From Fabrea salina (taxonomy: Eukaryota > Ciliophora > Heterotrichea > Heterotrichida > Fabreidae): DNA of 64,000 bases. Shown piece after piece: positions 19,070 to 21,921 of the stretch; the stretch's first letter is position 1; every line of letters starts with the position of its first letter. The position numbers and the translations under genes are program-made. The notes beneath the pieces were generated by a model. It was not told the DNA's origin. It ran no database searches and saw nothing but the letters and a program-made list of their open reading frames with translations. The DNA is taken from positions 186,001 through 250,000 of the forward strand of contig JALIHJ010000008.1 in NCBI GenBank assembly GCA_022984795.1. Reading direction: 5' to 3'.

Positions 19070-20050
19070 ATGTTTTTAGTACTGAGTTTACTCGTTGATA
19101 TTGCAGCAGGTGCTACTTGCAAAGCTTTGTCCTTGGAAGGTGGCGGGAGCCACGGTGCTTACGAAGCAGGAGCCATTTGGGGGCTGGTGAACGGACTCCC
19201 TGACGATGAAGTGAACTGGAATGTGGTGACAGGAATTTCAACCGGAGCCCTGAATTCAGGGGCAGTGGCCCAGTTTCCTATGGGCCAGGAAAAGGAGATG
19301 GCTGACTTTGTGGTGGACACTTGGACTTCCTTGAAGGGGAGTTCTAGTGTATACCAAAGCTGGCCTGGAGGCTTAGTTGAAGGGCTGTTGTTTGAGTATG
19401 GACTCTTTGACACCACACCCCTAAAGAATTACCTCAGAGCCAGGTACGTTAAAGGAATCAATAGAAACATCACCGTGGGGGCTACCAACTTCAACGACGG
19501 AAAGTTCTACCAGTTCAGCGAAACAGAAAAAGATATTCTAGAAGGAATAATATGTTCAGCTTCTCCTCCGCTATTTTTCCCCCATCAACGGTACAAAGGC
19601 TCTGTGTACGCTGACGGAGGCTGCGTAGTTAACCTAGACTACTTCGCAGCCGTGAACAGGTGCAAAGAAATAGCTGAAAAATACAGTGACATCACTGTTG
19701 ACCTAATTTTTGACAACAAACCTACTGAAATTACTAATGAAAGCCAGTTCACTACTATAGGTGTGCACAATCGAGTCAAAGAAATCCAGAACTACGACAA
19801 AACCATGTGGCTCTACTACAGGTCACTCAGCTACTACCCCGAAGTTCACTTCAGGTATGTTCTAGAACCTTCTAAAACTCTGCCAAATGGAAAGTTCAGT
19901 GAAGTGCCCTTAGATTTTAAGAAAGAAGATTTGGAGGCTGAAATCCAACTAGGCAAGGAAGACGCCAAAAGGGCTATTGAAGAAAAGCAAGACGCTAAAC
20001 TCTTCATATCTTCAGCTTTCCAAGAAACCAGAGAAGTTATTTACCCATAA
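19070..20050 (+). CDS. Secreted patatin-like phospholipase, copy 3
   Basis: 326 residues in tandem with copy 2. The leader (MFLVLSLLVDIAAG) and first quarter are nearly identical to copy 2; the last half is the most diverged of the four copies. The catalytic motifs remain: TGISTG and YADGGCVVN. It differs at the oxyanion block (SLEGGGSHGAYEAG). Its stop codon lies inside the 14-nt sequence ATTTACCCATAACT that is duplicated twice downstream around two inserted elements, so its 3' flank has been displaced from its original convergent neighbour. Confidence 0.87.
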   Translation: MFLVLSLLVDIAAGATCKALSLEGGGSHGAYEAGAIWGLVNGLPDDEVNWNVVTGISTGALNSGAVAQFPMGQEKEMADFVVDTWTSLKGSSSVYQSWPGGLVEGLLFEYGLFDTTPLKNYLRARYVKGINRNITVGATNFNDGKFYQFSETEKDILEGIICSASPPLFFPHQRYKGSVYADGGCVVNLDYFAAVNRCKEIAEKYSDITVDLIFDNKPTEITNESQFTTIGVHNRVKEIQNYDKTMWLYYRSLSYYPEVHFRYVLEPSKTLPNGKFSEVPLDFKKEDLEAEIQLGKEDAKRAIEEKQDAKLFISSAFQETREVIYP

Positions 20051-20052
20051 CT
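20039..20052 (+). repeat. Target-site duplication, copy 1 of 3
   Basis: ATTTACCCATAACT. It overlaps the last two codons and stop of patatin copy 3, so this is the original target sequence. Identical copies lie at 21036-21049 and 21396-21409. Confidence 0.85.
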
Positions 20053-20062
20053 CTGACCTTCC

Positions 20063-20080
20063 GATCGGTAACAAGATTTA
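20063..20080 (+). repeat. 18-nt direct repeat bounding the ORF, left copy
   Basis: GATCGGTAACAAGATTTA, followed by a (TTTA)n tract. An identical copy is at 21009-21026, followed by (ATA)n. A shortened relative of the tail end (AAGATTTAATAATAATAA on the minus strand) occurs in the insertion at 38869-38927. Confidence 0.85.
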
Positions 20081-20092
20081 TTTATTTATTTG

Positions 20093-21004
20093 TTATGTTA
20101 TCAAGCCCTTGGGCCTTTTTAGAGTTACAGTGAGAGGGGTTTGCTTTGCGGGTCCTTTGTTTCGCTTGCATTTCCTCTTCTTCCAGGCACAGTCGTTTGT
20201 GTTTTTTGTGTTTGTTGTTTGTCTGGTGTCTATTTTTGTGCTTCTGGGTAGTTGTGGTTCTTTCTGTTTTTGTGAGAGCTTCCTTCTTTGTTTTCTTGTG
20301 TCCAGTCTTGTTTCTTCGAAGGTTGTTTTCGTTGCTCTTGTTACGCTGGGTGTGCTGCGTTTATTGTTTTCTCCTGGTTCTTTTTCCTTTCTGTCCAGAA
20401 TTGGTTCTTCATCGTCCAGGTTTCTCATGATTGCATCGAGCAATTTGTCTTCTTTGCTTTTTTCAGTGAGAGTTTCCTTTGTCTTTCTTTGTGGATTTTT
20501 TGTTGCGAGCTCCATGTCTTCGTCCGGGTTCTCTTCCGTATTTAGCTCTAGGAGTACTTCCAGGTCCGAGTCTTCTTCTGAGTCTAGGTCTGTGTCTTCT
20601 TCCCAGCTTAAGTAAGAATCTATATCTGAGTCTGAGTTCTCCTCGAAGTCTGAGTCTTCGCTCCATTGGTCGTCTGAGTATTGCTCCTCTTCAGTTAAGG
20701 TTACAGAGCGCCGGAGGCTCCTGTATTTTCTTAAGGTGTCTAGGAAGTTAGCGAAGTAATCGCAGCCTTTTGGCCTTTCTGTGCTTTCGTCATCTGATGA
20801 TTCTGAGCACATCATTTGATCCGTTATTTTTTTGATGTGATACTTCAGTGTTGACTTGTCTATTGTTAGGAAATTCGGGTCCCCTATCAAGTGTCTACCT
20901 TCAGGGGCCACATAAGCCACGTCTTGGATTAAATCCAGGACTTGGGTCTTCGAATCAGCATTCTCGATAACGCTTGTATTCGAAATTGTTTCCCGATTTT
21001 CCAT
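20093..21004 (-). CDS. Element-borne acidic protein of unknown function
   Basis: 303 residues from ATG 21004-21002 to the TAA at 20093-20095. The first 100 residues look globular (LDLIQDVAYVAPEGRHLIGD), residues about 105-165 are very acidic with Ser/Asp/Glu repeats, and the last 130 are strongly basic. This acid-then-base layout resembles a chromatin- or nucleic-acid-binding protein, but I recognise no family. The ORF begins four bases from one 18-nt repeat and ends 12 bases from the other, so it belongs to the inserted element. The overlapping plus-strand frames are low-complexity Phe/Ser/Leu/Val strings, the expected antisense of an acidic ORF. Confidence 0.6.
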   Translation of the reverse strand: MENRETISNTSVIENADSKTQVLDLIQDVAYVAPEGRHLIGDPNFLTIDKSTLKYHIKKITDQMMCSESSDDESTERPKGCDYFANFLDTLRKYRSLRRSVTLTEEEQYSDDQWSEDSDFEENSDSDIDSYLSWEEDTDLDSEEDSDLEVLLELNTEENPDEDMELATKNPQRKTKETLTEKSKEDKLLDAIMRNLDDEEPILDRKEKEPGENNKRSTPSVTRATKTTFEETRLDTRKQRRKLSQKQKEPQLPRSTKIDTRQTTNTKNTNDCAWKKRKCKRNKGPAKQTPLTVTLKRPKGLIT

Positions 21005-21008
21005 TTTT

Positions 21009-21026
21009 GATCGGTAACAAGATTTA
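21009..21026 (+). repeat. 18-nt direct repeat bounding the ORF, right copy
   Basis: Second perfect copy of GATCGGTAACAAGATTTA, here leading into the (ATA)n tail of unit A. Confidence 0.85.
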
Positions 21027-21035
21027 ATAATAATA

Positions 21036-21049
21036 ATTTACCCATAACT
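21036..21049 (+). repeat. Target-site duplication, copy 2 of 3
   Basis: ATTTACCCATAACT between units A and B. Confidence 0.85.
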
Positions 21050-21395
21050 GGAGAGGGGTGTTTTTCTTGACGAGCTGACGTGTGTTTGTCAGCGAAGACC
21101 AAGTTTTCACCTCGCCAGGAAGGTCCGGTGTTCCCGGTACCTCCCGGTCAGAAACCTGGGGCAATCCCAAGCTTGCAGGGACTTGGTGATACCAGGTGGA
21201 AAGCTGGTAGCGGTCGACTACCTGGTAGCAGAGGTGCTACTACCCTTGCCTGCACAAGGGGAGTCACGAGGGACCTGCGAGCCCGCGCACGCCATGCTAT
21301 CAGATTAGCCGGAGGACAAGGAACACGTGGCCGCGGGCCCTACGGGGTATGGCTAGGACAGCTGACTGTGGTTTTCGAAAAACTCTTATTAATTA
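21050..21395 (+). mobile_element. SINE-like GC-rich insertion unit B (346 bp) with hairpins
   Basis: The unit is flanked by perfect 14-nt target copies and ends on the right in an AT tail (TTATTAATTA). The body is clearly more GC-rich than the surrounding genes and codes for nothing convincing. It can form several hairpins: TACCAGGT/ACCTGGTA (21190-21197 with 21220-21227), GTAGCA/TGCTAC with a GAGG loop (21225-21240) and CCCTTG/CAAGGG (21243-21260). The first two share bases and cannot both form fully. A structured small-RNA-derived retroposon is the likeliest reading. I could not match it to tRNA, 5S or SRP RNA by eye. Confidence 0.65.
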
Positions 21396-21409
21396 ATTTA
21401 CCCATAACT
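21396..21409 (+). repeat. Target-site duplication, copy 3 of 3
   Basis: ATTTACCCATAACT, followed two bases later by the stop of the convergent SUKH gene. Without the insertions the two genes' stop codons would be about 14 bases apart, the usual spacing in this window. Confidence 0.85.
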
Positions 21410-21411
21410 AT

Positions 21412-21921
21412 TTATATCCTATCTACAAGTCCATCTCCTTCGATGTACATAAAGTTGGCAAGCATGTTGTGTCTAGTGTTTGTGAGGAAGTGCCCCAGAG
21501 TGTCACCCAAGTTCTGAATGAAACCCTGTTCAGGGTGCCACTCAAACACTTGGCCAGTGTCTTTGTCCATTACAAGGAATCCTCCGTTTTTGTCTTTGGC
21601 AAAGGGCAAGTAGGTAGACTTCCAGTGCCTAGACTTGTTGAGACTAGAAAGTTCATCTTTGCAGTCCTGGACTGAAAGCAAAGTATAAGTGCCTGTAAAC
21701 ATAATTCCTCCGTCGTGTCTAAGCCACAGCTTTTTAAGTTCAGAGGGTGCATTGTAAAAAGCAGGGTCTTTGGTGTCCTCTAACTTGGGAGGAGGAGACC
21801 ACCCTGGGATATTGTTTCTGCTCCACTCTAGTATGTCCCTAATAGCTTCTTCTATTCTCCCCATGCTCAGTTCTTTAGGAGGAATATTTCCCTCCCGGAA
21901 CTCTATGACATCGGGTTCCAT
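21412..21921 (-). CDS. SMI1/KNR4 (SUKH) family protein
   Basis: 169 residues making one SUKH fold. The hallmark pieces are the Trp-bearing N-terminal helix (IRDILEWSRNNIPGW), LKKLWLRHDGG, LPFAKDKNGGFLVMD and GQVFEWHPEQG. Yeast Smi1/Knr4 regulates cell-wall synthesis; bacterial members are immunity proteins, and eukaryotic members generally act as protein-binding scaffolds. The function in ciliates is unknown. The gene is convergent with patatin copy 3 across the inserted elements. Confidence 0.8.
   Translation of the reverse strand: MEPDVIEFREGNIPPKELSMGRIEEAIRDILEWSRNNIPGWSPPPKLEDTKDPAFYNAPSELKKLWLRHDGGIMFTGTYTLLSVQDCKDELSSLNKSRHWKSTYLPFAKDKNGGFLVMDKDTGQVFEWHPEQGFIQNLGDTLGHFLTNTRHNMLANFMYIEGDGLVDRI

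Follow-up and report, generated by a model that had tools for sequence, protein, structure and literature searches.

The macronuclear genome of the heterotrich ciliate Blepharisma contains APE-type non-LTR retrotransposons that carry an RVT_1 domain and an APE-type endonuclease, as described in passages of PMC9942856. Some of its LINE families include many copies above 97% identity (passages of PMC9942856 and PMC9942806), and its telomere repeat is CCCTAACA, according to a passage of PMC9942806. In human NF1, three L1 endonuclease integration sites were each used twice by independent insertions; the duplications of one Alu pair were equal in size, and in one pair a single cleavage site served on both strands (passages of PMC3219598). 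The L1 consensus cleavage site is given in the same passages as AA-TTTT. In toothed whales, independent SINEs are found at the same position within 1 nt, with 37 cases and a frequency of 0.18-0.29% in the relevant part of PMC10531181.

This report describes a locus of Fabrea salina that holds three insertions: two related short elements on one 14-nt target, one of which carries a third element in its tail. The window, which is the whole 64,000-nucleotide stretch that was analysed, corresponds to contig C81, positions 186001-250000, of an assembly of 18,328,466 bp in 103 contigs. The insertions lie between a patatin-like phospholipase gene and a SUKH (SMI1/KNR4) gene, and the features of the locus, in window coordinates, are as follows.

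19070..20050, plus strand: patatin-like phospholipase gene (Pfam PF01734, E 3.5e-21), whose final codons, stop included, fall within the first target copy
20039..20052, plus strand: left target copy (ATTTACCCATAACT), adjoining the original left flank GAAGTT
20053..20080, plus strand: left piece of a 37-nt, 5'-truncated B retroposon (CTGACCTTCCGATCGGTAACAAGATTTA), with the 3' end of other B copies
20063..20080, plus strand: left copy of the nested duplication GATCGGTAACAAGATTTA, from the insertion of C
20081..21008, minus strand: element C, full-length relative to other copies, with its 5' end at 21008, an (AAAT)n tail from 20081 and its own duplication
20093..21004, minus strand: 303-aa ORF of element C (no Pfam match, one MGnify relative)
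21009..21026, plus strand: right copy of the nested duplication GATCGGTAACAAGATTTA
21027..21035, plus strand: remainder of the tail of the B copy (ATAATAATA)
21036..21049, plus strand: middle target copy (ATTTACCCATAACT)
21050..21395, plus strand: A retroposon with tail TTATTAATTA, known from its three genome copies, alignment to B and RNA fold
21396..21409, plus strand: right target copy (ATTTACCCATAACT), adjoining the original right flank ATTTATATCC
21412..21921, minus strand: SUKH gene (Pfam PF09346, E 1e-9)

The initial annotation had described a 14-mer that occurs three times and brackets bodies of 983 and 346 bp, both with A/T simple-sequence tails on the right, and both observations were borne out. 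The three copies of ATTTACCCATAACT are exact; in 100 shuffles of the window, three matches never occurred even with up to 2 mismatches allowed (mean 0.37), and the only exact matches in the 18.3-Mb assembly are the three in the window (0 for the 14-mer read backwards). The right ends of the bodies are the A/T simple sequences AATAATAATA (983 bp) and TTATTAATTA (346 bp). Because both tails end in A/T, the exact repeat that flanks A can be extended leftwards to 16 nt (TAATTTACCCATAACT). When the inserts and two target copies are removed, the patatin and SUKH stop codons lie 4 nt apart and not about 14, as first estimated; a 4-nt gap also separates another convergent gene pair of the window (52332/52337). 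The locus was read from assembled sequence, in which two repeat copies might have been joined at the 14-mer. An artefact of this kind is hardly credible: the 14-mer has no other exact match, so no other assembled locus supplies the junctions, and the nested element C carries a perfect duplication of its own.

The 983-bp body is a composite in which a 37-nt B copy is split by element C (37 + 928 + 18 = 983). The B 3' end is made up of the left 28 nt and the right 27 nt of the body, with minus-strand C between them, and around C lies a second, nested duplication, the 18-nt GATCGGTAACAAGATTTA. This nested duplication rules out the 983-bp body as a single unit. Two target-sharing insertions stand, as the initial annotation had proposed, but its two units become three insertions. 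Its description of the two bodies as unrelated is too simple: A and the outer part B are related families, 73-81% identical in the matches found, and C is a third element that forms the bulk of the larger body. One insertion event with template switching was also rejected, since the middle target copy could presumably have come from neither RNA.

Elements A and B are short dispersed copies, each family with a common 3' end and tail and no recognised reverse transcriptase (RT) coding. There are three copies of A in the genome; the other two, at C29:174232 and C16:16300, have the same right end, are 5'-truncated further than the A copy of the window, and carry duplications of their own (16 nt and 15 nt). 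The similarity search with B gave 19 rows, comprising 15 B copies outside the window, the B tail in the window and the three A copies. Ten B copies are 99-100% identical to the copy on contig C68, and four are divergent (77-86%). The longest B copies seen are those on contigs C68 and C48, and alignment to B shows that window A lacks about 95 nt found at the 5' end of the longest copies. Duplications were kept for all three A copies and for 12 further B copies. The two families differ at their 3' ends: B ends in CTGACCTTCCGATCGGTAACAAGATTTA followed by (AAT)n, whereas A ends in GGTTTTCGAAAAACTC followed by a TTAA-type tail. A genome-wide pattern search for these ends, with up to 3 mismatches, found no LINE with the 3' end of A or B. 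All three matches to the A end are A copies, and 14 of the 15 matches to the B end are B copies or the split copy of the window; the other is a 3-mismatch site without such context, and the backwards control gave one match.

Window A (21050-21409) is predicted to be strongly folded as RNA (z-score -3.7). Rfam gave no match up to E 5 inside A or full-length B, and the weak matches in the scanned stretch (E 1.2 and 4.4) fall in element C and the patatin gene. A derivation of A and B from tRNA, 7SL, 5S or another described structured RNA was set aside for lack of any Rfam match, and for the same reason the families are called SINE-like here and not classic SINEs. In an RNAalifold comparison of A, B and divergent B, 3 of 49 pairs changed on both sides, and the covariation term was positive, which is unfavourable, so that a conserved structure is unsupported. 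A hairpin of different sequence is predicted at the corresponding place in A and B (z -1.6 and -2.9) and lends such a structure weak support at most. The 3'-end folds of A and B are no better than those of shuffles; elsewhere, 3'-end folds score z -1.5 in element C and z -1.2 in LINE2, and the LINE1 piece was folded without its stem. Tentatively, and with some doubt on our part, A and B might be one structured RNA lineage of about 440 nt that exchanged its 3' stretch and tail unit (TTAA versus AAT) for LINE copying; insertions would open spacers, tails would offer nick sites, and retroposons would seed more of their kind and pile up in a few permissive gaps.

Element C is about 930 bp long and is inserted on the minus strand, opposite to the orientation of B. 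The copies at C32:89165-90097 and C45:196701 are 99.7% identical to that of the window, and the copy on contig C54 is 99.8% identical to it. The ends of the longest other copies coincide with those of the inserted part or differ from them by a few bases. The ORF begins 4 nt inside the 5' end, reaches the tail, and is acidic by inspection. Among 12 aligned copies, seven reach the start codon; in four of these the ORF is open to the end (303 aa in the window and L014, 291 aa in L016 and L017), and in L015, L018 and L019 it is disrupted. A database search with the ORF gave, among 753 candidates, one relative (MGnify) at E <= 0.001, with 65% identity over half of the query. Non-autonomous elements of the half-LINE type are known (HAL1 and similar). 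Element C resembles the HAL1 type in having an ORF without a recognised RT together with a LINE-like 3' end: C and LINE1 both end in GGCCC..GGGC followed by an (AAAT)n tail. It differs in that tblastn of the C ORF gave no hit in the LINE1 copy of contig C51, so that C as ORF1 of LINE1, and its derivation from that LINE, are unsupported.

Several further copies have structures of their own. In L031 (C19:174967-175770), a degenerate stretch like the 5' end of C leads into LINE2-like sequence of the same orientation, which hints at a longer joined element. The C copies L023 (C52:62556-64711) and L024 (C35:1191-3350) lie in a duplicated block in which the sequence 5' of one copy matches that 3' of the other, and vice versa; the flanks seem swapped, as after recombination between two insertions. 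L008 (C48:214046-214438) and the C copies L018 and L019 have many small deletions or insertions relative to their relatives, which may be decay or sequencing error.

RT-bearing LINEs are present in the genome. RVT_1 has five matches, four of them over the cut-off: LINE1 on contig C51, three LINE2 copies, and one on contig C18 that by eye resembles a telomerase-type host gene. The LINE1 match has an E-value of 1.3e-39, and the element has a 16-nt duplication. A further segment of LINE1 resembles, by eye, an APE-type endonuclease (GDFN...IDH); this 136-aa piece has no Pfam hit, and many relatives of the LINE1 RT piece among the matches listed carry PF03372/PF14529. Two in-frame TGA codons interrupt the frame of the contig C51 copy; one separates the endonuclease-like segment from the RT segment. 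This near full-length copy (L043/L095, C51:172539 to about 176150) splits a host gene. A full-length LINE2 was sought on contigs C92 and C7; the C92 copy lacks its 5' part up to about position 330 of the library piece, and the C7 stretch holds host-type ORFs across most of its 4 kb. At L086 (C81:111200-111700), two opposite LINE2 ends, both from internal position 952 of the library piece, lie 60 bp apart, and a further LINE2 fragment sits beside one of them, as after internal deletion. A LINE1-like 3' fragment (L041, C2:1-1147) adjoins telomere-like CCCTAACA repeats, and several other copies lie near contig ends; CCCTAACA-type repeats were seen at two contig ends, the start of C2 and the end of C8.

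The initial annotation had inferred retroposition and had looked to a genome search for other copies that share a right end and tail in differing duplications. Such copies are found for every part of the locus, and retroposition is well supported: many copies are truncated at the 5' end, each family has its own right end, A/T tails are present, and the duplication changes from one site to the next. Target site duplications of 12-18 nt were kept at 45 sites among 69 copies tested, with the shared target of the window counted once. The automatic test had found a repeat of at least 12 nt between the ends of 47 of the 69 copies, two of them trivial (split B pieces, overlapping end windows); repeats of at least 12 nt were shared by 70 of 4588 cross-contig control pairs (1.5%), and with flanks only the count was 34 of 69 own pairs versus 4 of 4588 crossed pairs. 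The 24 copies without an accepted duplication include two pieces of the B copy of the window, two LINE2 copies whose 5' end falls outside the library piece, duplicated-block copies (C9/C12, C35/C52), the contig C51 LINE1, whose 16-nt duplication was detected separately, and copies with short, off-place or no repeats; library-piece cuts or duplicated blocks explain some of the 24 and not others.

In a genome that looks ciliate-macronuclear from its CCCTAACA-type ends, one might suspect the bodies to be internal eliminated sequences that were retained, or DNA transposons between direct repeats, and eliminated sequences of Blepharisma are bounded by direct and inverted repeats in a passage of PMC9942856. 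This reading is highly improbable in view of the truncation of copies to many lengths at the 5' end, the fixed 3' ends, the A/T tails and the differing 12-18-nt repeats. An inverted-repeat scan detected none in the 983-bp body and, in the 346-bp body, one internal 11-nt pair away from the ends, and terminal inverted repeats at either body were thus rejected.

The duplications are 15.6 +/- 1.5 nt long (45 sites; class means 15.3-15.8), and the nick falls in a motif of TT followed by A/T-rich sequence, with T at -2 in 31 of 45 sites, T at -1 in 38 of 45, and A/T at 0 and +1 in all 45. In each class of 15 sites (A+B, C and LINE2), T stands at -1 in 12, 12 and 14 sites, respectively, and A/T at 0/+1 in all 15; the agreement between classes also holds without the two sites of the window. 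The maximal-extension rule biases the base just before the nick, and a random-position control under the same rule lacks the motif. Judged from the target sequences, a motif common to A+B, C and LINE2 sites is as expected of an APE-type LINE endonuclease. The shared target has a score of 7.25 bits, higher than 99.6% of the spacer positions of that strand, and the B tail offers nick sites of 7-8 bits; in both cases this locus is one of the 45 sites behind the profile. The nick of C in B scores 8.06 in a 17-nt reading versus 4.35 in the maximal 18-nt reading, its position being ambiguous within A/T tails. Site-specific LINEs of the R1/R2 kind insert into one conserved target sequence. Here the 45 sites vary in sequence and no further exact match to the 14-mer exists, so that site-specific insertion into it was rejected; the site preference suggested initially thus applies to the motif and the narrow nick spacing and not to the 14-mer.

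Three separate events of target-primed reverse transcription very probably built the locus, and the repeated use of one target that had been proposed is supported. An APE-type LINE endonuclease would nick the bottom strand between GAAGTT and ATTTACCC and the other strand about 14 nt away; within the GAAGTTATTTACCC target, the bottom-strand nick would fall between TT and AT. Because no LINE with the end of A or B was found, only the shared motif points to the mobiliser of A and B. At this target, a SINE-like RNA of one family would have been copied in, leaving the 14-nt duplication, and an RNA of the second, related family would have followed later. With A first, B would have used the intact left-hand nick site again; with B first, A would have primed at or just inside the end of the B tail, sharing the second nick. 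Separately, C RNA would have primed from the tail of B itself, splitting B and leaving the nested 18-nt duplication. The left duplication copy restores the first-nick site (GAAGTT followed by ATTT, 7.25 bits), and the junction of B tail and target, between ATAATAAT and AATTTACC, is a further site (7.12 bits) that implies a 15-nt duplication. Since the duplication rebuilds the nick site and the tails add new ones, re-use in either order needs no special site specificity.

Alternatively, one allele or macronuclear copy might have had B between two targets and another A between two targets, with an unequal exchange in the 14-nt repeat bringing both into one chromosome. With three identical target copies, the product would look alike; this route still needs two insertions at one target, plus a crossover in only 14 nt of homology, and nothing in the sequence calls for it, which makes it improbable. 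The number of same-nick pairs expected among 92 insertions from the motif is 0.016 over all positions and 0.11 in spacers only, by a profile that includes this locus; requiring equal duplication length cuts the expectation about fourfold (0.25 used; observed lengths give 0.22). Coincidence is therefore uncommon, not extreme, before local clustering is considered. The mechanism is ordinary, and the record is unusually clear.

Clustering is seen across the genome. The census holds 92 rows (among them A 3, B 16, C 24 and LINE2 41), leaving out nine short 3'-end matches (41-79 bases), one adjoining fragment and some fragments beside listed copies; three duplicated-block rows were then dropped, giving 89. 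Fourteen pairs lie within 1 kb, whereas 2000 uniform placements gave 0.54 on average and never more than 5. The independence of two of these pairs (C19; C81:111345/111483) is uncertain and three are those of the window, so that nine remain. If insertions survived only in spacers, about 1.2 same-spacer pairs would be expected, with spacers estimated from the ORFs of this window only. On contig C55, the 3' end of a LINE1 copy contains a LINE2 of opposite orientation, just as B contains C here, and on contig C43 LINE2 and B abut on opposite strands with nick sites at most 2 nt apart. Such clustering would be expected if tails and opened spacers served as new targets; selection for harmless places would also bring insertions together, and the data are compatible with both.

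Compared by description, the F. salina genome resembles that of Blepharisma in having somatic LINE copies with RVT_1 in a heterotrich with CCCTAACA telomeres. The two differ in that the word SINE is absent from the main text of PMC9942856, and the passages of PMC9942856 and PMC9942806 on these elements describe no shared target. Among the literature matches listed, none reports SINE-like elements in a ciliate macronucleus by title or abstract, in a coverage that leaves out most subscription journals, and no description of families A, B or C was found among them. SINE-like elements would be added to heterotrich macronuclear genomes, from which LINEs have already been reported. The roughly 90 catalogued insertions in 18 Mb of closely packed genes form a compact test bed for endonuclease preference versus selection for harmless sites in where retroposons survive. 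In NF1, as covered by the passages of PMC3219598, double use of a site occurs in different people, whereas the F. salina insertions are stacked in one chromosome. The whale insertions are in different species, and their associated autonomous element is the whale LINE1 (same part of PMC10531181). Double target use is thus inferred across individuals or species in the passages of PMC3219598 and PMC10531181, whereas here two hits on one target, together with a nested third, are preserved in one chromosome.
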